A stretch of 33,541 nucleotides of DNA, from positions 1-33,541 of the forward strand of contig JAKARO010000022.1 in the NCBI GenBank assembly GCA_021821885.1, read 5' to 3'. This DNA comes from Pseudomonadota bacterium. Lineage in GTDB: Bacteria > Pseudomonadota > Gammaproteobacteria > Acidithiobacillales > Acidithiobacillaceae. How positions within the stretch are numbered: position 1 is the first letter of the stretch; every line of letters begins with the position of its first letter. Positions 2,323-12,240 of the stretch are shown here, one piece after another. Under the pieces are notes generated by a model. It did no database searches. It had not been told where the DNA came from and was given only the letters and a program-made list of their open reading frames with translations. The position numbers were made by a program, and so were the translations under genes.

Positions 2323-2589
2323 TCAGTTGCCGTTCAGGCTGCGTTCGATATTGGGAAGTTCGGCGCCAATGCCCGCCCCCACCGCTCCTCCGACCGCGGC
2401 GCCGAGCGCAGGATTGCCACCGGCGATCGCCCCGGGAACGGCTCCGCCGGTTGCCCCAATGGCACCTCCGCCCAGGGCGCGCTGTCCGGCCGGACTGATG
2501 CGGGCGCAGCCCGCCATTGCAGGCATGCAGAAGGCCAGAAGAACGGCTTTCCAGGATGCGGCGTTTGTGATTTTCCGGTTTCCCGCCAT
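2323..2589 (-). CDS. Small glycine-zipper lipoprotein
   Basis: This 88-residue protein begins MAGNRKITNAASWKAVLL and has a lipoprotein signal ending in PAMAGC, with the cysteine as predicted lipid anchor. The mature part is a Gly/Ala repeat (GGGAIGATGGAVPGAIAGG and following) typical of glycine-zipper domains, which insert into or pack against membranes. The tail is short and polar (LPNIERSLNGN). An upstream in-frame ATG at 2652 would add 21 residues before the signal peptide and overlap the previous gene, so I chose the internal ATG. Its ribosome site is weak. The gene lies 38 nt after the secreted protein gene at 2628-2960 and may share its transcript. The exact function is unknown. Related small lipoproteins are often envelope-stress or outer-membrane structural proteins. 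Confidence 0.7.
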   Translation of the reverse strand: MAGNRKITNAASWKAVLLAFCMPAMAGCARISPAGQRALGGGAIGATGGAVPGAIAGGNPALGAAVGGAVGAGIGAELPNIERSLNGN

Positions 2590-2627
2590 GCTTCGGGCTT
2601 GTCGTGCCTCAGAAAGGGCATCTCCTG

Positions 2628-2960
2628 TCAGTGGTCCCAGCCACGATGCCACCGCCAGTCCCCCCTGCCTTCATCTTCGTGTCTCCAGCGGGGCCGGTAG
2701 CGGCGCCAGTCGGGGCGCTCCGGAACAACGTAGGCGGCGGGAGGCGGTGCATAGACAACCTGGGGGGGTGGCGCGTAGTAGCGGGGCTGTTCTCCACCAA
2801 CGTAGAAATTGAGGCCGGGAACCGCAAGCCCGAGGGCAAGATCTCCCAGATCGCCACCGTCGTCTGCCATGGCGGGCAGGCTGGCTCCAAGGAACGTGAA
2901 GGCGGCGAGAGCCATGGACAGCCACCGTGCTGGCCTTAGGTAAAGGATCCGGATATTCAT
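2628..2960 (-). CDS. Secreted Pro/Tyr/Arg-rich protein of unknown function
   Basis: The product is 110 residues. The start at 2960 is set by GAGGAAACAGC directly before ATG. The N-terminus has a clear signal peptide: basic MNIRILYLRPARW, a hydrophobic stretch, then LPAMA before DDGGD, giving cleavage near residue 31. The mature protein has a short Gly/Leu segment, a proline-tyrosine run (YYAPPPQVVYAPPPAAYVV) and an Arg/Trp/His-rich tail ending RWHRGWDH. I recognise the general style of small exported PPPxxY proteins in proteobacteria but not a named family. Upstream is a very good sigma-54 promoter match and a candidate activator site, so its expression is probably conditional. It may be cotranscribed with the glycine-zipper lipoprotein downstream. 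Confidence 0.75.
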   Translation of the reverse strand: MNIRILYLRPARWLSMALAAFTFLGASLPAMADDGGDLGDLALGLAVPGLNFYVGGEQPRYYAPPPQVVYAPPPAAYVVPERPDWRRYRPRWRHEDEGRGDWRWHRGWDH

Positions 2961-2994
2961 GCTGTTTCCTCGTTTCATAGGGTGATAGAATTTA

Positions 2995-3010
2995 AGCACA
3001 TATCGTGCCA
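2995..3010 (-). promoter_or_regulatory. Sigma-54 (RpoN) type promoter for the secreted protein gene
   Basis: The minus strand reads TGGCACG-ATAT-GTGCT. The sigma-54 consensus is TGGCACG-N4-TTGC(A/T). All positions match except one T, and the invariant GG and GC are exactly 10 nt apart. The predicted start of transcription, near 2984, leaves a 24-nt leader before the ATG at 2960. The assignment is from sequence only; rpoN is not in this window. Confidence 0.65.
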
Positions 3011-3088
3011 TGCACTGCGTGCAGTAAAAACAGGCCACTGGTGACGCGCGACTATGCCGTAGTGTTGCCATTTGCCTACAGATTTTGG

Positions 3089-3103
3089 GGTTATTTCATA
3101 ACC
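3089..3103. promoter_or_regulatory. Perfect inverted repeat, candidate activator binding site
   Basis: GGTTAT-TTC-ATAACC is a perfect 6-bp inverted repeat with a 3-nt centre in an AT-rich patch. Its centre is about 110 nt upstream of the transcription start predicted from the sigma-54 promoter, a usual distance for a sigma-54 enhancer-binding protein site. The function is inferred from position. Confidence 0.4.
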
Positions 3104-3281
3104 TTCTGAAAACAAAAGGCTGTTATTTTGTTGAAAAGTTGAAGATCCGCTGTTCCGGGCGGAGAAACGGCGGGCCGGCAGCTGCCTTGCGCCAGGCGCC
3201 GGATATTCCTGGAATTCTGGATGGGCCAGCGGTTTGCGGGTTCCGCTACCCGGGCCGTGCCTGGAGAAGACGGCTGGTGGA

Positions 3282-4442
3282 TCATGGATCTTGTCTACCG
3301 GTTCCATAGGCTTTGATGGCCTCCAGAACGAGATGCTGGATATTTTTTCCGGCCGTTCTTATTGCCGCCTCCATTTCAGGGGGGGGCAATTTGTTTTCAA
3401 GTGCAGACAGGGCGGTGTAGGCCGCAAGGATGGGGTGATCCTCTGCTGTTTCCTGTGCGCGGAGGAAAGATGCCAGGGGACAGCGGGAAAGGAAGGCCGA
3501 CAGGGACATTTCTCTTCCTTCATGCCGCAAGCCATACAGGAGAGGCCGCCGCAGCAGGTATCCCGCATAGGCACCGAGAATGGTCCGGGGTATCCCGGGT
3601 GCAGTGGGGGTGGCCTCCGGCAGCGCTGGATCCAGCAGAAACGCAATGGCATCGGGCTCTGGCATCGGGTAGGCCAGGGCGTATCCCTGTACCAGGTCCA
3701 GACCGAGCGTTGCCATTGCGTCCAGAATGGCAGGGGTTTCCACTCCCTCAACGACCAGGGTGGTGCCAAGCCCATCAGAGAGGAACTGGATGCCCTGAAT
3801 AAAAGCCAGGTTTTTAGGGTCGGCATCCAGATCGCTGACAAGTCTCTGGTCCAGTTTTATTTTCTGTATGGGAAGGGTTTTGAGCCGAAGCAGGGAAGAA
3901 TAGGCGCTGCCAATGTCGTCCAGGGCAATGTGCGCTCCGGTTGCCCGAATCGACTGAAGGCGCTGTACCGCCACACTTCCATCGAGGAAATCTCCACCTT
4001 CCAGAAGTTCCAGCGTGATCCTTTCCGGTTTTATGCGGGTAGATCCGATAACCCCCAGGAAGCAGGCGCTGCAGTCATGGTCTTCCATGAATCCTGCATC
4101 CACGTTGAAAGAAAGGTCGAGGACAATCCCAGACTGGTCAAGTTTTTCCAGAAGGTGGATCCCCGCCACGAGCATCATGCGGCTAAGCTCCCGCCGCTCC
4201 GGAACGTCCAGGGTCGCCAGAAATTGTTTTGGGGCAAAAATCTCCCCCGCAGCGTTCTGTATGCGTGCGAGGGCTTCTACGGCGGTGAAACGTCTCTGGG
4301 TGAGAGAATAAACTGGCTGAAAATAGGCTACCACATCATCCGGAAACCGCCATTTCTGGCCATTTCCAGAAATGGCGCCGATGGGTGCGGAAGCCTTTCG
4401 CCGCTGGCCTGTTATGGGTGCTGAGGCAGGCTGGTAATCCAT
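3282..4442 (-). CDS. EAL-domain cyclic-di-GMP phosphodiesterase with extra C-terminal region
   Basis: From the ATG at 4442 the protein has 386 residues. An EAL domain spans about residues 35-270 and keeps the residues used for metal binding and hydrolysis: Glu56 of the EAL motif, Asn113, Glu145/Glu148 in LELLE, Asp175-Asp176 in LDDIGSAYSSL, Lys196, Glu232/Glu235 in VVEGVET, and Gln252 in VQGY. It should be able to linearise c-di-GMP to pGpG. No GGDEF, PAS or membrane segment is present, so it is probably cytoplasmic. Residues about 272-386 form a C-terminal region I do not recognise, with Leu-rich helices and a Cys at 321. A longer reading from TTG at 4529 is open but would begin inside the predicted promoter. 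The ribosome site before 4442 is weak. Confidence 0.85.
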   Translation of the reverse strand: MDYQPASAPITGQRRKASAPIGAISGNGQKWRFPDDVVAYFQPVYSLTQRRFTAVEALARIQNAAGEIFAPKQFLATLDVPERRELSRMMLVAGIHLLEKLDQSGIVLDLSFNVDAGFMEDHDCSACFLGVIGSTRIKPERITLELLEGGDFLDGSVAVQRLQSIRATGAHIALDDIGSAYSSLLRLKTLPIQKIKLDQRLVSDLDADPKNLAFIQGIQFLSDGLGTTLVVEGVETPAILDAMATLGLDLVQGYALAYPMPEPDAIAFLLDPALPEATPTAPGIPRTILGAYAGYLLRRPLLYGLRHEGREMSLSAFLSRCPLASFLRAQETAEDHPILAAYTALSALENKLPPPEMEAAIRTAGKNIQHLVLEAIKAYGTGRQDP

Positions 4443-4524
4443 GATTCCATCCAGTTCCTGAAATTCAGAATGCGCCTCTATGCCGGACCGGGCAGACCCG
4501 GTTTTCCGGGAAAATTTTATTCCC

Positions 4525-4594: not shown

Positions 4595-5629
4595 TCAGGG
4601 AAGTACGGCAATCTGGCCGATACCCAGGGTTTCAGGAAAACCGTGCATGACATTCATGTTCTGTACAGCCTGTCCCGCCGCCCCTTTTACCAGATTGTCG
4701 ATAACCGAAAGAATGACAATCTGCCCTGGACGGGGCTGGTGAAGAGCGATACGGCACAGGTTTGCTCCCCGGACACTGCGGGTGGCAGGATGCCCCCCAA
4801 AGGGGAGAACATCCACAAAAGGCTCGTCGCCGTAGGCCTTCTGGTAGATTGCCTGCAGTTCACCATTGTCCATCGGGACATGGAGTCGTGCATACAGCGT
4901 CGCATGGATTCCCCGGATCATGGGCATCAGGTGGGGAGTAAACTGGAGCTCGACCGGATCGCTGGCGATCCGGGAAAGCACCATCTCAATTTCTGGGCGG
5001 TGGCGGTGGCCGCTGACACCATAAGCCTGAACGCTGTCGCCGACCTCGGGGAATATCAGCGAAACCTTGCCAGTGCGGCCGGCCCCGCTGACACCGGACT
5101 TGCAGTCGGCGATCAGGGTGGAGCGGTCGATCAGGTCCGCCTGCAGAAGGGGGGCAAGGCCCAGCAGTACGGCTGTAGGATAGCACCCGGGGTTGGCGAC
5201 AATGCGGCTGTTCCGGATTTCCGTGCGAAACAGTTCCGGCAGCCCGTAAACGGCCTCAGCCAGCGTTTCGGGGGCCGTGTGCGGCTGGTCATACCACTTC
5301 GCAAACACCTCCTGGTCCTGCAGGCGGAAATCTGCGCTGAGATCAACCAGTCTGGCCCCGGCGTCCAGGAGTTTCCCGGCCATTTCCATGGCAACCCCAT
5401 GGGGAGTCGCAAAAAAGACAAGATCAAGATTGCCGAGCCTGTCCATGTCCGGCTCCGTGAATATGAGATCGCAATGTCCCCGGAGACTGGGAAAAAGGGC
5501 ATCTACCCGGATACCGGTCTCGCTGCGCGACGTAATCCCGGCAATTTCCACTTCCGGATGGGACAGTAATAGCCGGAGCAGTTCCACACCCGTATATCCG
5601 GTGCCTCCTACAATAGCTGCCTGGATCAT
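4595..5629 (-). CDS. argC: N-acetyl-gamma-glutamyl-phosphate reductase
   Basis: The product is 344 residues, the usual length. It catalyses the NADPH-dependent reduction of N-acetylglutamyl-5-phosphate to the semialdehyde, the third step of arginine synthesis. The N-terminal Rossmann motif is GGTGYTG (8-14). The catalytic cysteine is Cys149 in NPGCYPTA, and the histidine of [12 protein letters not shown] completes the usual active site. An AGGAG ribosome site precedes the ATG at 5629. The gene follows rpsI on the same strand, separated by a rho-independent terminator, so it probably has its own promoter or depends on read-through. No other arginine gene is in the window. Confidence 0.96.
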
Positions 5630-5662
5630 CGCTCAACTCCTGGACAAAGAACCTCTAACGGA

Positions 5663-5688
5663 AAAAGCCGCCCATGTAGGCGGCTTTT
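5663..5688 (-). terminator. Rho-independent terminator after rpsI
   Basis: GCCGCC (5667-5672) and GGCGGC (5679-5684) form a stem around a 6-nt loop, flanked by A5 on one side and T4 on the other, so it could act in both directions. On the minus strand it ends in a U-tract and lies 22 nt after the rpsI stop codon. Confidence 0.85.
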
Positions 5689-5710
5689 CAGGGCATATCC
5701 GGAAAACGGA

Positions 5711-6097
5711 TCAGCGCTTGGAGAACTGGTGGCTCCGGCGTGCCTTGTGCCGGCCGACCTTTTTCCGTTCGACCTCACGTGCGTCCCGCGTTACAAACCC
5801 TGCGCTACGCAGGGGACGGCGCAGGGATTCGTCATAGGCCATAAGGGCTCTGGTAATGCCATGCCGGATGGCACCGGCCTGGCCACTTGCGCCACCACCA
5901 CTGACATTGACCAGAATGTCAAACTGGGAATGATGACCCGTCAGCTCCAGTGGCTGCATGACGACCATGCGGGATGTTTCGCGGCCAAAATATTCCTCTA
6001 TGCTCCGCTTATTGATGACAATTTTTCCATTGCCACGCCGGAGGTATACGCGTGCGGTTGCACTTTTCCGCCGTCCAGTTCCGTAATACTGTTCCAT
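5711..6097 (-). CDS. rpsI: 30S ribosomal protein S9
   Basis: The product is 128 residues. It opens with [19 protein letters not shown] and ends in the typical basic tail [14 protein letters not shown], whose last residues reach the P-site tRNA in the ribosome. The conserved [15 protein letters not shown] segment is present. The start is 12 nt after the rplM stop, the standard rplM-rpsI operon order in bacteria. A strong terminator follows. Confidence 0.98.
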
Positions 6098-6109
6098 GAA
6101 TTGACCGCC

Positions 6110-6538
6110 TTAAATGTCAAGAGGCTGTGGCTGCTGCGCCATATGCGGGTGCTGGGGTCCAGCGTACACCTTCAGTTTCCGGTACATGGCACGTCCCAGG
6201 GGGTTTTTGGGGAGCATGCCCTTCACTGCCAGTTCAATAACGCGCTCAGGGTGTGTCTCGATCATTTTCTCGAAAGACGCGCTTTTGAGGTTTCCCACAT
6301 AACCGGTGTGCCGGTGGTACATCTTGTCTTTTGACTTGTTGCCAGTCACCGCCACCTTTTCGGCGTTGACGATGACTATGTAGTCGCCAATGTCGGCATG
6401 GGGGGTGAATTCTGGCTTGTGTTTACCCCGCAGGCGGCGCGCAATCTCGGAAGAAAGGCGTCCAAGCACCTTGTCGGTAGCGTCTACGACGAACCAGTCC
6501 CCCTGTACTTCGTGAGACTTGGCGGAATAGGTCTTCAT
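6110..6538 (-). CDS. rplM: 50S ribosomal protein L13
   Basis: The product is 142 residues, the same length as in E. coli. It begins [20 protein letters not shown] and contains the L13 signatures [18 protein letters not shown] and [20 protein letters not shown]. The start at 6538 is set by homology and by a GGAG ribosome site. The reading frame is open upstream for 60 further codons, but these include the promoter and are not coding. It is the first gene of the rplM-rpsI operon. L13 is an early 23S rRNA-binding assembly protein and in E. coli represses its own operon. Confidence 0.98.
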
Positions 6539-6577
6539 GAGGAAACTCCGGTCACGGGTATCTCTATAAGGCGCGGA

Positions 6578-6606
6578 ATCGTATCGAATAGGTGCCGTCC
6601 TGTCAA
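6578..6606 (-). promoter_or_regulatory. Sigma-70 promoter of rplM-rpsI
   Basis: On the minus strand, a perfect TTGACA (6606-6601) is followed by a 17-nt spacer and TACGAT (6583-6578). The bases after the -10 are GC-rich (TCCGCGCC), the kind of discriminator linked to stringent control of ribosomal genes. The start codon is about 40 nt downstream. Confidence 0.75.
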
Positions 6607-6722
6607 CAGGACTCCGGATTGCAGGCGAGTACAAGCGTGTCCCCGCAGCTTCCACCCAACGGCCGGACGGGAGCATTTTCAGTTCCGGTATGGGTGCCCG
6701 GTACTGCCAGAAAATCACGGGC

Positions 6723-6751
6723 TTCCGGACCTGTCGGTGGATACCTTTAAT
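6723..6751 (+). promoter_or_regulatory. Possible promoter of the pgi leader
   Basis: TTTAAT (6746-6751) matches the -10 consensus at 5/6. A poor -35 (TTCCGG, 6723-6728) lies 17 nt upstream. The predicted transcript would start near 6758 and run through the terminator and alternative hairpin described separately. Support is weak because of the -35. Confidence 0.3.
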
Positions 6752-6783
6752 TTCCGGCGGAAAAAATGTTCTCCAGAGGCATT

Positions 6784-6806
6784 TTCCCCGGGCGCCGGGA
6801 ATTTTT
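6784..6806 (+). terminator. Intrinsic terminator-like hairpin in the pgi leader
   Basis: TTCCC-C-GG (6784-6791, one bulged C) pairs with CCGGGAA (6795-6801) around a tight loop and is followed by TTTTT (6802-6806). It faces the plus strand, yet no plus-strand gene lies upstream (that side is antisense to rplM). It therefore looks like an attenuator for pgi or the end of a short RNA. Confidence 0.5.
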
Positions 6807-6823
6807 GTTCACCAAAATTCCGG
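6795..6823 (+). promoter_or_regulatory. Alternative hairpin that would disrupt the pgi leader terminator
   Basis: CCGG-G-AATTTT (6795-6805, one bulged G) can pair with AAAATTCCGG (6814-6823). It uses the 3' arm and U-tract of the terminator at 6784-6806, so the two structures are mutually exclusive. A further small hairpin, GCAGGC-AAA-GCCTGC, lies at 6898-6912, close to the pgi ribosome site. Confidence 0.4.
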
Positions 6824-6937
6824 TTCAGGCGTGGGAGGGAGCGCCGCATGGCTTGCCCGCCAGGGTCCCTTCACCTAATCTCACCAGTAACGGGCAGGCA
6901 GGCAAAGCCTGCAGCATACATCAGCAAGGAATCTGGC

Positions 6938-8575
6938 ATGTCGGAAACGGCTTTATTGGATCTTGCGCCCTGGCGCGCCCTGAAGGAACAGAGAACCCGC
7001 TGGGGAAACCGGACTCTCGAAGCGCTGTTCCGGGAACAGCCGGGACGTGCCAGGGAATTTAGCGCCGAAGCCTGCGGCATCTACCTGGATTACTCCAAAA
7101 ATTGGCTGACCCCGAAAATTTTCGGACTCCTTATGGACCTTGCCCGTGCCTGCGGCCTTGAGGCACAGCGCGATGCGATGCTTGCCGGAGACCACATCAA
7201 CCGCACCGAAGACCGGGCGGCCTTTCACGTTGCCCTGCGTGCACCGCCTGGAACTGTGATGTGTGTAGATGGCGAGAATGTGGTGCCGCAGGTCCGGGAA
7301 GTCCTGCAGCATATGGCAGATTTTGCCGAAAAGGTCCATTCCGGGAGCTGGCGTGGCGCTACAGGCAAGCGTATCCGTCAGGTAGTCAACATTGGTATCG
7401 GAGGATCCTATCTTGGGCCGGAAATGGCGTATGGCGCGCTCCGCCGGTGGCGGCGTCCAGACCTCCGCGTGCATTTTCTGGCCAATGTGGATGGGGCAGC
7501 TTTCCGTGACATCTCCAGCCAGCTGGACCCGGCTGAAACCCTGTTTGTTGTGGCTTCCAAGACCTTTACCACACTGGAAACCATGACCAATGCCCGGCTG
7601 GCCCGCCAGTGGATAGCCGGGGCTCTGGGGGAAACGGCGATTCCACGCCATTTTGTCGCCGTTTCCACCAATGCAGAGGCGGTGCGATCCTTTGGGATGG
7701 ACCCCGCACACATGTTTGGTTTCTGGGACTGGGTCGGGGGCCGCTATTCCATGGACTCGGCCATTGGGCTTTCTACCATGCTCGCTACCGGCAATGGGGC
7801 TTTCCAGGAGATGCTGCGGGGATTCCATGCCATGGACCACCATTTTTGCGAGACCCCCCTGGAACAGAACCTTCCCGTGCTGTTAGGAATGGTTGCCATC
7901 TGGAACAACAATTTCTGGGATGCGGAGAGCCAGGCGATACTGCCCTACGCCCATGATCTGGCCCGTCTGCCGGCGTACCTGCAGCAGCTGCAGATGGAAA
8001 GTAACGGGAAATCCGTGGATATGAACGGGCAGCCTCTCCCCGTTCGCAGCGCCCCCATCATCTGGGGAGAGCCAGGCACGGACGGCCAGCACTCCTTCTA
8101 TCAGCTGCTGCATCAGGGCACACGGCTCGTTCCGTGTGATTTTATCGGTTTCTGCCAGCCCCTGAGCGACCTTGGTGATCAGCATGACCTGCTGATGGCC
8201 AACATGGTTGCCCAGGCAGAAGCGCTGGCTTTTGGCAACTCGGATGAAGCGCTGCGGAAACAGGGAGTTCCGGAATGGCAGATTCCACACCGGTTCTCGC
8301 CGGGAAACCGGCCGAGCAACGTACTGCTGGCTGACGCGCTCACCCCCTATACCCTTGGCGCGCTGCTCGGGCTGTACGAGCACAGCGTCTTTACCCAGGG
8401 GGCCATCTGGAATATCGACTCCTTCGACCAGTGGGGCGTGGAGCTGGGAAAAGTGCTTTCCAGGCGCATTCTCCAGGACATGCGCGGAGAGGCCACCCAT
8501 CCCCATGATGGCTCGACCCTTTCCCTGCTCCGGCGCTACCAGGAAAAGCGGCATTCTGGCAGCGCCGGAGAATAG
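6938..8575 (+). CDS. pgi: Glucose-6-phosphate isomerase
   Basis: The product is 545 residues, typical of the long bacterial/eukaryotic PGI family. It interconverts glucose 6-phosphate and fructose 6-phosphate. Both family signatures are present: [15 protein letters not shown] in the middle, and near the C-terminus the stretch from [12 protein letters not shown] to [10 protein letters not shown], which carries the catalytic lysine region. The sugar-phosphate loop is SKTFTTLET and the catalytic Glu lies in the [10 protein letters not shown] segment. The start [12 protein letters not shown] has AAGGA 8 nt upstream. The frame is open far upstream, but that part is antisense to rplM. A structured leader precedes the gene and a probable terminator follows. 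Confidence 0.97.
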
Positions 8576-8658: not shown

Positions 8659-9828
8659 ATGAAAAAATCTGCCCTTCTCGCTGCCACTGCTGCCCTGGCG
8701 GCAGCCCGCAGCGGATATTCGATGGTTCCGCCACCACCGCCAGTTCCACCACCCCCACCGCTGCCTGCCCCCAGGCTTTCCGGGGTGCAGGCAGCGGTAT
8801 TGCTGGATCTGGACAGCCACCAGGTGCTCCTGGACCAGGGAGGGGACCGCGAACTCCGTCCTTCTGGTCTGGTCAAGCTGATGACGGTGTACCTGCTTTT
8901 CCAGGCGGAAAGTCAGGGTCTGCTGAAGAAAGAACAAAAAATTCCCGTATCCGCAGAAGCCTGGCATGCTGCAGGCTCAAGAATGTTCATTCAGCCTGGA
9001 CTCCCGGTAACAGCGGGCCAGCTGGCAAAAGGGCTTCTGATTGATGGCGGCAACGATGCAGCAGTCGCTGTTGCCCAGGCAGTAGCGGGCAGCGTGGGTG
9101 CTTTTGTCGATCTCATGAACCGTAAAGCGGCTGAACTGGGTCTTTCTGGGACGCATTTCAGCAATCCGGATGGCCTGCCTGGGCCTGGGCAGCAAAGTAC
9201 AGCCCTGGAAATTGCCCGTCTGGCACAGATTCTGGTCCTGAAATATCCGCAGGTACTGGGGATTGCAGGAGGGACCAGCTATACCTACAACGGGATTACC
9301 CAGTACAACTACAATCCGCTGGCCGGGCGGGCAGGGATCAACGGTCTCGGTGTCGGGCGTGCCTCTGCCCACCGGTGGAATCTGGCCCTAAGCTCCAGCC
9401 GGAAAGGGCGCACTCTCATTGCTGTCATCCTGGGCGCACGTTCCCGTGCGGCAGCTGGCCGGGATGGCAGCATCCTCCTGCACTATGGATTTCACGCCTG
9501 GCGGGACCGCCAGGTCTATCCGGCTGGTGCCGCCGTTGCGGAACCTGAACGGACAGACTGGAATCCCGAAAAATTGCAGGTGTTGACTTCCAGGGCCGTA
9601 ACGGTTTCAGTCCCCTATCCCGGAACAGGAGAAGTCCAGGAGCAGTTCCGGATAAAACGGGACCTGCGTGCGCCGGTCCGGAAAGGACAGACAGTCGGAA
9701 ATCTCTGTCTGCGATGGAAAGGGCAGCTGCTCAGGACTGTTCCAGTAATAGCAGGAAACCGTGTGGCTCCGGCAGGATGGTTTACCCGGTTCTGGCAGGA
9801 GCTTCGCCAGAGAAAATCCCTGCTCTAG
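8659..9828 (+). CDS. DacA/PBP5-like D-alanyl-D-alanine carboxypeptidase homologue with all active-site motifs lost
   Basis: The product is 389 residues. An N-terminal export signal (MKKSALLAATAALAAA) is followed by a proline run (residues 24-38). Residues about 41-285 have the fold signature of low-molecular-weight penicillin-binding proteins, and about 305-370 match the PBP5 C-terminal domain. The three catalytic motifs are all changed: SxxK reads GLVK (70-73), SxN reads GGN (130-132), and KTG reads GVG (231-233). Surrounding residues (LMTVYLLF, NDAAVAVAQ, FSNPDGLPG) remain conserved and the frame is intact. Acylation by penicillin or peptidoglycan is therefore not expected; it is probably a scaffold or peptidoglycan-binding pseudoenzyme. 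It follows pgi by 83 nt, across a possible terminator. No clear ribosome site precedes the ATG. Confidence 0.85.
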   Translation: MKKSALLAATAALAAARSGYSMVPPPPPVPPPPPLPAPRLSGVQAAVLLDLDSHQVLLDQGGDRELRPSGLVKLMTVYLLFQAESQGLLKKEQKIPVSAEAWHAAGSRMFIQPGLPVTAGQLAKGLLIDGGNDAAVAVAQAVAGSVGAFVDLMNRKAAELGLSGTHFSNPDGLPGPGQQSTALEIARLAQILVLKYPQVLGIAGGTSYTYNGITQYNYNPLAGRAGINGLGVGRASAHRWNLALSSSRKGRTLIAVILGARSRAAAGRDGSILLHYGFHAWRDRQVYPAGAAVAEPERTDWNPEKLQVLTSRAVTVSVPYPGTGEVQEQFRIKRDLRAPVRKGQTVGNLCLRWKGQLLRTVPVIAGNRVAPAGWFTRFWQELRQRKSLL

Positions 9829-9908: not shown

Positions 9909-11570
9909 TCAGTCCCGGTCCGGCACATGGAGCATCCCTTCTTCACTGGGGCCTGGAACCGGAGGGGGGGAGCCGCAGTCACTGTCCAGACTGGCCATGC
10001 GCAGGTCCAGATCGGTGAACAGGGCCTGGAATACCCCTGCATCTATGCGTCCTTCCCGGTAGGCTTCACGCAGGTTTGCCATCTGCAGGTTCAGCAGTCT
10101 GGCCCGAAGCTGCCGGCATTCCAGCCGGTAGCGCTGTACGGCATCCACGTGAATCTGCCCCAGTTCGGCTTCTGCCGCATCCAGCTGTTTCTGGTAATCC
10201 TCTTCCGCCGAACGCATGACCGGTTCTGAAAACAGTTCTGTGCTGCGGAGACGCTCCAGTTCGGGAAGCATCTGGGCGATGTTGCGCCAGCGGCTGCTGG
10301 CAATTTCGAGAGCACGGAAACCCTGTCCTTCTACCAGTCCCAGGTAGCGGACCAGCGGAGTCATGCTCATGCCCTGAACAATAATGGTCAGCAGGACAAA
10401 GCCGAAAACCAGATTTACGATCAGGGCGTGTCCAGGGAGCGAGGCTGGCAGGCTCATGGCCAGAACCATGGAAAGTCCTCCCCGAAGCCCACCCCATGTC
10501 AGGACCATGGCCCAGCTGCGCGGGAGAGAGCGTGCCCCCATCTTTAGCAGCGCGGATACCCCCGCAGCCAGGCTTCCACGGGCAAGGGTGGCCGCTACCC
10601 AGGAAACCAGGATTAACGGCCAGATGTGGAGCAGCGCCGGAATCTGGATCTCAAATCCCATGAGGAGAAAAACCATGGAATTGAGCAGGAATCCGAGGTA
10701 CTCCCAGAAATCGCGCAGGACGGCCTGGCGCCGTATGGCAAGAGTTTCTTCAGAGATCCTGGCGCTGAATACCAGTCCTGCTGCCACCGTGCTGATGACG
10801 CCGGAGACACCCATCTGGCTGGCTATGAGAAAAGACGCATAGGCGATGACAGTTGTCAGCGTGATTTCCACCATGGCGTCATCACTGCGCCGTATGACCT
10901 GGGTGAGTATCCCTCCAACCATTGCGCCTACCAGAAAACCGCCACCTACCAGCCACAGAAATTCGGCAACCAGGTCGACAGGGGCATTGGCCCGGTGGCG
11001 GAGATACGTAAGAACGAGTCCAAAAAAAACAATCGCGGTGCCATCGTTAAAAAGGCTTTCTCCCTCAAGAATAAGGAGGAGGCGCCGTGGTATTCCCAGG
11101 CTGCGGAAGAGGGCGACCACCGTGATGGGATCCGTGGCGGCTATGGCTGCGCCAAAAATGAGGGCGAGGGGCCAGTTAATGGGCAGTATCAGACTGGTTG
11201 GGAGAGACTGCAGTGTTTTCGCCGCCAGGATCAGGATGGCCGCAGTAAGGCCAATGCCCAGAATGACTCCGGGGAGAGCCAGTGTCAGGATGGAAAAGCG
11301 TTCACGCCAGAGCTCCATGGCCCGCATGTTGATGGAAGCCTCGAACACGAGTCCTGGAAGAAAAATGGTAAAAAGTGTCTGGCGGTCCAGTACTGGCGCT
11401 GAAAGCAGGTGAAGTGTGCCCAGACCGAGTCCTGCAAGTACCAGAGAAACGGTGTAGGGCATACGCAGCCGCCGGGCGCCTATCGCCACCAGTGCCACGA
11501 CCAGAAAGAGAACGAGGACGGTATTCTCGATGGAAAGGTGCTGGATCTGCTGGATGAAGCTGTCAGGCAT
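9909..11570 (-). CDS. CPA1-family Na+(K+)/H+ antiporter
   Basis: The product is 553 residues, starting MPDSFIQQIQHLSIEN (AAGGAA 9 nt upstream; the longer open frame upstream overlaps a relic gene). About 12 hydrophobic helices fill residues 12-380. CPA1 landmarks include AATDPITVVALF and GESLFNDGTAIVFFG, with the acidic residues used for cation/proton exchange, and WGGLRGGLSMVLAM. The last 170 residues are a cytoplasmic helical domain rich in Glu, Arg and Leu (LPELERLRSTELF, YQKQLDAAEAELGQI), probably regulatory. It sits in the inner membrane and would support pH and ion balance, which fits an acidophile. It converges with the PBP5-like gene. NhaP/YjcE-type naming cannot be refined without alignment. 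Confidence 0.9.
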   Translation of the reverse strand: MPDSFIQQIQHLSIENTVLVLFLVVALVAIGARRLRMPYTVSLVLAGLGLGTLHLLSAPVLDRQTLFTIFLPGLVFEASINMRAMELWRERFSILTLALPGVILGIGLTAAILILAAKTLQSLPTSLILPINWPLALIFGAAIAATDPITVVALFRSLGIPRRLLLILEGESLFNDGTAIVFFGLVLTYLRHRANAPVDLVAEFLWLVGGGFLVGAMVGGILTQVIRRSDDAMVEITLTTVIAYASFLIASQMGVSGVISTVAAGLVFSARISEETLAIRRQAVLRDFWEYLGFLLNSMVFLLMGFEIQIPALLHIWPLILVSWVAATLARGSLAAGVSALLKMGARSLPRSWAMVLTWGGLRGGLSMVLAMSLPASLPGHALIVNLVFGFVLLTIIVQGMSMTPLVRYLGLVEGQGFRALEIASSRWRNIAQMLPELERLRSTELFSEPVMRSAEEDYQKQLDAAEAELGQIHVDAVQRYRLECRQLRARLLNLQMANLREAYREGRIDAGVFQALFTDLDLRMASLDSDCGSPPPVPGPSEEGMLHVPDRD

Positions 11571-11636
11571 CGCGGTTTCCTTCGACAAACTTCCCGGTAG
11601 GGTACGCGAATTTCTCCGCAGGGGCAGCCCCAGTCC

Positions 11637-12240
11637 GTCAGGCAGCCGGCGCCACGGACATCCTGATAACGGGGGATCTTGCGCCCAGCTTTTTTCTCGG
11701 GCTGTCAATTAAGGATATTGATCGGACTGCTTTCCACGTTTCCCCCCAGGCACAGATACGGCTTTCAAATGCGTCGCGGCCGGGGCGCTGGAGAAGCGCA
11801 GGGATCAGGAGAATCCCCGCAGCCAAGGCGGTGTGTGCCTCCAGGTCCAGGTTAGGGGGAACCATTGGAAAGAATGGGAAATGCGTGCCATCCCTGTCGC
11901 CACCGGACGGTACGCCATTGTGCCGGCAGTTCCCCGTGCCGGAAAGGGCTTGACCATGTAGTTGCCGGCACCTGCATCCAGCGCATCACGGGTATTGAGG
12001 AGGATAACCGGCAGGATTGGGCCCAGGCTGCACAGATCCTGGGAGAATGAGAAGACCTTCGTCGCCTGGTAGCCCGAGGTCCAGAAGCAGAACTTCATGC
12101 CCGACGGGATAGAGGACTGTGCGTGCGGCTCTGGCAGTCCTGATCCGGTCCGCGGCATGTCCACCGTCACGCAGCGCCACACAGCTGGCGTCTCGCCAAG
12201 CATCGGGCCGTCTTTGGCCAGCAGCAGAAGCACTCTGTCT
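11637..12240 (-). pseudogene. Decayed OmpR/QseB-type response regulator
   Basis: Fragments of one response regulator lie in order on the minus strand but in different frames: RVLLLLAKDGPMLGE (receiver start, near 12238), ALRDGGHAADRIRTARAA and EVLLLDLGLPGDEGL (phospho-acceptor Asp region), PVILLNTRDALDAGAGNYM with VKPF (receiver end; several residues missing relative to the family), then LQRPGRDAFESRICAWGE, NVESSPIN and DVRGAGCL, remnants of a winged-helix DNA-binding domain. At least four frame changes are needed, so no functional protein is made. No partner histidine kinase remains. The whole 11571-12505 gap contains nothing else I can support; 12241-12505, between the relic and prs, looks non-coding. 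Confidence 0.8.

Follow-up and report, generated by a model that had tools for sequence, protein, structure and literature searches.

The locus studied here raises the question of why a gene of the PBP5 type should persist intact when the residues of the active DD-carboxypeptidases are absent from it, and what its product could then be doing. The window (the whole stretch of DNA that was analysed, 33,541 nucleotides) contains at 8659..9828, on the forward strand like the other features located below unless stated, an ORF of 389 codons plus stop without any internal stop, whose product, a presumably inactive homologue of the S11 carboxypeptidases, is referred to as pseudo-PBP5. A sequence-only reading had recognised in it a PBP5-family gene with GLVK, GGN and GVG in place of SxxK, SxN and KTG, and this description was confirmed by the ORF, by Pfam and by an alignment with 34 canonical relatives (30-36% identity to the window protein), which constituted our comparison set.

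Homology to the S11/PBP5 proteins by descent follows from two Pfam models that both exceeded their cut-offs: Peptidase_S11 at residues 44-261 (E 8.5e-47, 160.1 bits, cut-off 27.6) and PBP5_C, the PBP5 C-terminal domain, at residues 283-369, i.e. 9505..9765 (E 2.2e-8, 34.5 bits, cut-off 21.2). None of the protein's four Pfam matches (E up to 1) is to LppC. NCBIfam equivalogs remained far from their cut-offs (DacD, 178 of 610 bits; DacA, 155 of 694), and the nearest solved relatives by sequence were carboxypeptidases of the PBP5/PBP6 type. Given so strong a match to the S11 model, such genes may be annotated as DD-carboxypeptidases. The translation begins with a signal-peptide-like N-terminus (8659..8721, approximate, delimited by eye), which resembles those of the orthologues, and continues with a Pro-rich linker at about 8725-8772, located between the signal peptide and the domain, that the orthologues share and the paralogues have more weakly. 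The C-terminal helix (9778..9822, residues 374-388), taken from the AlphaFold2 secondary structure, is a possible membrane anchor. Its helical moment was reached by at most 4% of shuffles in 17/17 sequences of the second genus and by 6-34% of shuffles in nine other sequences (L090 left out), the window copy standing at 34%; membrane anchoring of the latter is possible by analogy only.

An AlphaFold2 model, for which the input was the window protein together with the 34 canonical relatives, reached a pLDDT of 84.3 and a pTM of 0.80, with a lower mean pLDDT (78) in the block formed by residues 231-240, where the KTG motif formerly lay. Best Foldseek matches were E. coli PBP6 (3itb_D; TMq 0.81, TMt 0.89, rmsd 2.2) and PBP5 structures, and the structures of E. 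coli and P. aeruginosa PBP5 and of E. coli PBP6 gave TMq values of 0.72-0.82 against the model. Pseudo-PBP5 is predicted to adopt a PBP5-type fold, toward which the alignment of canonical relatives may have biased the model. With PBP5/DacA, PBP6/DacC and DacD it would share the fold (PDB 3itb, 4k91, 1nzo), besides the sequence family, the C-terminal domain, an N-terminus resembling an export signal and the C-terminal helix, but it differs from them in lacking the SxxK Ser, the SxN Ser, the KTG Lys-Thr pair and the Arg at position 266.

The replacements, as read from the translation, the orthologues and the canonical alignment, are GLVK for SxxK at residues 70-73 (8866..8877), GGN for SxN at residues 130-132 (9046..9054) and GVG for KTG at residues 231-233 (9349..9357). 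Residues 70 and 130, each Ser in 34/34 canonical relatives, are both Gly, and residues 231/232 are Gly/Val instead of the Lys/Thr found in the same 34/34. The claim that all catalytic side chains had been removed holds for both serines and for the KTG Lys-Thr pair, but not for K73 (the Lys of SxxK), N132 (the Asn of SxN) and G233 (the last Gly of KTG), which are retained. A misplacement of the motifs through a shifted alignment was considered and excluded, as the flanks of all three are gap-free (K-L-M-T, G-N-D-A and G-L-x-x-G); the model, in which residues 73-85 and 132-143 are predicted to be helical and 227-234 to form a strand, also contradicts this idea. Further losses in the same alignment affect position 218, Arg in 34/34 canonical relatives and Tyr here, and position 266 (9454..9456), where the Arg of 34/34 is replaced by Ala, as in 27/27 orthologues; we take these two positions to correspond to Arg198 and Arg248 of PBP5. 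Arg248 of PBP5 is described as making a bidentate contact with ligand carboxylates (PMC4979060). The loss of the Arg at 266 argues against a plain retention of the D-Ala-D-Ala binding mode.

The complete protein was used as a query against 29 genomes of the window's family, belonging to four genera. Orthologues, distributed over the four genera, were identified in 27 of them, i.e. the window's own and 26 others at 56-63% identity; completeness is 61% and 71% in the two genomes where none was found. Each of the 27 has an intact frame and carries PSGLVK, GGN and GLGVG, so that the serines of SxxK and SxN and the Lys-Thr of KTG are uniformly replaced by Gly, Gly and Gly-Val; since the same pattern recurs in every orthologue, it represents more than chance. 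Canonical S11 genes exist alongside. The window's genome codes for three S11 genes, the two others having normal motifs, and our check of paralogues, which covered 22 loci of the window's genus and, from the other three genera, L134, found SxxK and SGN together with KTG or KSG in those 22. In another family of the same order, represented by two genomes, there was one match each to pseudo-PBP5, and the single S11 match fetched from that family has normal SxxK and SxN. All 80 outside relatives have SxxK and SxN, while the KTG pattern was recognised in 75/80, the remaining five, which fall within the 34/34 above, aligning with Lys and Thr. A degenerate DNA pattern for P-S-G-L-V-K-L-M-T, which covers the GLVK-type motif and would be escaped by divergent pseudo-S11s with other motifs, was found in 2/369 genomes of the class, namely that of the window and another from the same family.

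Whether such a gene is maintained or is instead a decaying gene or a recent mutant can be addressed from this distribution and from substitution rates. dN/dS was estimated following Nei-Gojobori for the 96 of 351 pairs of pseudo-PBP5 sequences with dS of 0.05-1.5, none of which includes the window copy, and gave a median of 0.138. In three close genomes the values of pseudo-PBP5 (0.064-0.081) compare with those of the dacA paralogue in the same genomes (0.061-0.093), and in the second genus one part gave about 0.12-0.45, the highest values occurring at very low dS, and another part 0.06-0.13. The orthologues of pseudo-PBP5 evolve under purifying selection. For the window copy no dN/dS can be given because dS between it and the orthologues approaches saturation (pS 0.66-0.79, pN 0.26-0.33); this circumstance, together with the longest terminal branch in the pseudo-PBP5 clade (0.57), is what could be held in favour of decay. 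Against it stand the excess of pS over pN in this very copy, the fact that all 27 orthologues have undisrupted frames with the same motif changes, and the low dN/dS, so that decay or recent mutation is rejected at the level of the family and practically no credence is left for it. The earlier proposal of a maintained pseudoenzyme is supported in each respect in which it could be checked: the GLVK/GGN/GVG pattern is fixed across species and genera, none of the 27 orthologues keeps SxxK, SxN and KTG, and dN/dS is low.

In a tree of 65 sequences, the 27 pseudo-PBP5 sequences form a single clade (support 100/100, stem length 1.16), within which the three genera represented by at least two members are each monophyletic (89/82 for the window's genus). 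This clade joins the long S11 paralogues of the family itself (42 rows, 100/100), apart from the outside relatives, in a tree whose long branches meeting were flagged by the program and which leaves the nearest paralogue of the clade undecided. The monophyly of the clade, combined with its occurrence as 27/27 orthologues, points to a single origin. The simplest reading is that one duplication of a DacA-like carboxypeptidase preceded the split of the sampled family members and was followed by vertical descent.

Lacking both the nucleophilic and the SxN serine as well as the KTG Lys-Thr pair, pseudo-PBP5 would have lost the acyl-serine DD-carboxypeptidase and penicillin-binding reaction. For E. 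coli PBP5, one report (PMC2909392) states, citing earlier work, that S44G abolished penicillin binding and carboxypeptidase activity, and itself found that the mutant protein lost its septal concentration and spread evenly in the envelope. S44G is the same Ser-to-Gly change of the nucleophile as that of pseudo-PBP5, but a single and laboratory-made one that is not known to confer a new role. Because this change kills the E. coli enzyme, the loss of carboxypeptidase activity in pseudo-PBP5 is, by analogy, near certain, short of new chemistry. The loss of septal localisation suggests in turn that a dead PBP5 cleft binds pentapeptide poorly, and the ancestral mode of finding pentapeptides probably does not apply unchanged in pseudo-PBP5. 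New chemistry could be imagined around Ser69, one residue ahead of the old nucleophile (PSGLVK), acting with the retained Lys73 and Asn132, all three being invariant in 27/27 orthologues and position 69 being Ala in 34/34 canonical relatives. Such a shift by one residue along a helix, however, swings the side chain round by some 100 degrees, and the protein further lacks the KTG Lys-Thr pair and the Arg conserved at 266, which makes a new catalysis very improbable.

What has happened to the former active site bears more directly on function. We counted positions at least 95% conserved in the canonical relatives at which the commonest residue of the pseudo-PBP5 clade is different, and compared a near-site set of our own definition (68-76, 128-134 and 228-241, plus 112, 218 and 266, these last three added post hoc) with all other positions. 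The replacing residue is the same in every sequence of the clade at 10/14 near-site positions and at 2/17 elsewhere (Fisher p 0.001, uncorrected for kinship); without positions 112, 218 and 266 the figures are 8/11 and 4/20 (p 0.007, likewise uncorrected). Identity within the clade averages 0.89 in the near-site set against 0.68 over the other positions, again without correction for kinship, and the corresponding values for the window copy against the other pseudo-PBP5 sequences are 0.84 and 0.55. The old active-site region has been remade into a fixed sequence comprising PSGLVK, GGNDA, GLGVG, A235, W240 and A266. This fixation and conservation is the main argument for a site that would still be functioning: since conservation is on average higher in the rebuilt region than over the remainder of the protein, the cleft most likely still binds something, either a peptide of peptidoglycan or a stretch of a protein. 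It also weighs against the idea of a mere scaffold, according to which the fold and the C-terminal domain mediate contacts with proteins such as class A PBPs or DacA, the cleft is ligand-free and the glycines of the motifs only tidy a dead site. The kept PBP5_C domain and C-terminal helix agree with a scaffold, as does the fact that, relative to the canonical relatives, the motif substitutions go to residues that are non-polar or small in side chain, but an unconstrained site should drift, whereas here the new residues are for the most part fixed; we regard the scaffold as rather doubtful.

The genomic neighbourhood offers indications of a partner. Upstream, the phosphoglucose isomerase gene gpi (6938..8575, Pfam PGI) lies 83 bp from pseudo-PBP5, and gpi is found upstream on the same strand in 20/20 fetched regions, with gaps of 47-173 bp in the eight relatives for which they were computed and three other ORFs intervening in L156. 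Directly downstream stands a class A PBP in 20/27 genomes (17 of the 20 fetched regions and three more genomes, from coordinates), but not in the other seven. The neighbouring class A PBP is a bifunctional protein of about 826 residues with Transgly, PCB_OB and Transpeptidase domains; it retains SGFK and S[HR]N in 19/19 sequences and GKTG in 18/19, the one without it being a copy that is split between frames and ends before this motif. As gpi is equally conserved and has no evident cell-wall role, part of this synteny may be passive.

A class A PBP of the neighbouring type was not found in seven of the 27 genomes, the window's and six of the second genus; the only class A PBP found in these is of a second type, which shares 64-68% identity with the first and does not adjoin pseudo-PBP5. 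These seven genomes fall into four separate groups on the tree of pseudo-PBP5, so the neighbouring PBP seems to have been repeatedly lost while pseudo-PBP5 stayed; incomplete assembly could explain some cases. The link to a class A PBP is not obligate, which counts against tying pseudo-PBP5 to that neighbour. Because pseudo-PBP5 persists where only the 64-68% identical paralogue is present, its partner could be one or the other of the two class A PBPs, or the synthesis machinery more broadly. Where the class A PBP stands in most relatives, the window has a gene for a Na/H exchanger (9909-11708, reverse strand), and the sole class A PBP retained by the window's genome is that of the second type, on contig C22. 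In L152 (G014), which lacks the neighbouring PBP, the ORFs that follow (about 5023-7839) resemble by eye a potassium channel and an RlpA-type protein.

The suggestion that pseudo-PBP5 regulates a true carboxypeptidase finds little genomic support, the adjoining conserved cell-wall gene being a class A PBP (20/27). In no more than 4/20 fetched regions (L147, L151, L153 and L154, of the second genus) does an S11 paralogue occur in the wider surroundings, at a distance of about 8-12 kb, and the dacA of the window's genome lies on another contig beside ORFs that resemble rodA and lipB by eye. Close to that suggestion is the idea of a decoy or competitor that would bind pentapeptide or DacA sites non-productively and so limit carboxypeptidase activity. 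The coexistence of normal-motif paralogues in genomes of the window's genus, the predicted retention of the overall PBP5 fold and the four loosely placed paralogues are compatible with it; since the position mapped to the carboxylate-binding Arg of PBP5 is Ala in 27/27 orthologues and the dacA of the window's genome lies on another contig, we consider a decoy improbable.

The reading that we favour, with confidence a little better than even, is that pseudo-PBP5 is a family-specific periplasmic pseudoenzyme of the PBP5 type, whose re-made cleft would serve binding or regulation in a non-catalytic role, such as the regulation or targeting of peptidoglycan synthesis driven by class A PBPs. The conserved rebuilt site, the kept C-terminal domain and the class A PBP next door argue for this role. 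Since an LpoA/LppC homologue exists in the window's genome, on another contig, an activator of known type is already available to PBP1A, and pseudo-PBP5 would be an additional factor beside it; a replacement of LpoA by pseudo-PBP5 is unlikely on the same ground. Regulators derived from inactive cell-wall hydrolases have precedents in the degenerate LytM factors EnvC and NlpD, which differ from pseudo-PBP5 in having a metalloprotease fold and in regulating amidases. Class A PBPs are themselves regulated by the protein partners LpoA, LpoB, CpoB and CsiV, as described in PMC4632607; these resemble pseudo-PBP5 in the proposed role of a non-catalytic partner, but are not PBP homologues, and LpoA and LpoB are outer-membrane lipoproteins.

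A bolder version, which we put forward only tentatively, is that a PBP5 turned once, by re-specification of its penicillin/D-Ala-D-Ala cleft, into a non-catalytic receptor that senses a peptidoglycan intermediate and controls class A PBPs throughout the family; the fixed cleft residues on which it would draw are Ser69, Gly70, Val72, Gly130, Gly231, Val232, Ala235, Trp240 and Ala266. If this were true, pseudo-PBP5 would be a natural beta-lactam-blind sensor derived from a penicillin-binding protein. Low-mass PBPs have usually been studied as enzymes, and the family-wide loss of single origin, together with a rebuilt site conserved above the rest of the protein, suggests that their scaffold can have a selectable non-catalytic role in the wall. 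Pseudo-PBP5 may also provide a natural system for separating the structural and binding functions of PBP5 from catalysis. Pseudoenzymes and regulators derived from dead wall hydrolases are already known, and a family-wide pseudo-PBP5 is apparently new, no natural example with all three motifs replaced being found among the literature matches listed, which covered few subscription papers. A survey of serine proteases described 42 inactive homologues in five other families, S11 not being among the families named in its available part (PMC2605481).

The class A PBPs of the family show some variation of their own. The neighbouring gene is in two pieces in different frames in L138 (G005; about 5685-8161) and in L143 (G006; about 2493-4503), the latter in a draft that is 69% complete. 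In the first glycosyltransferase motif of the family's 30 class A PBPs (L158-L187), EN occurs in 27 sequences and ED in three, and the second motif is STITEQ or STIPEQ, the usual form being STITQQ. The Glu of the RK[VIM]AE motif is a catalytic residue of GT51 enzymes. This motif is present in 28/30, and the neighbouring class A PBPs of L163 (G026) and L164 (G025) read RKVAQ; with the catalytic Glu replaced by Gln, these two may have lost glycosyltransferase activity.
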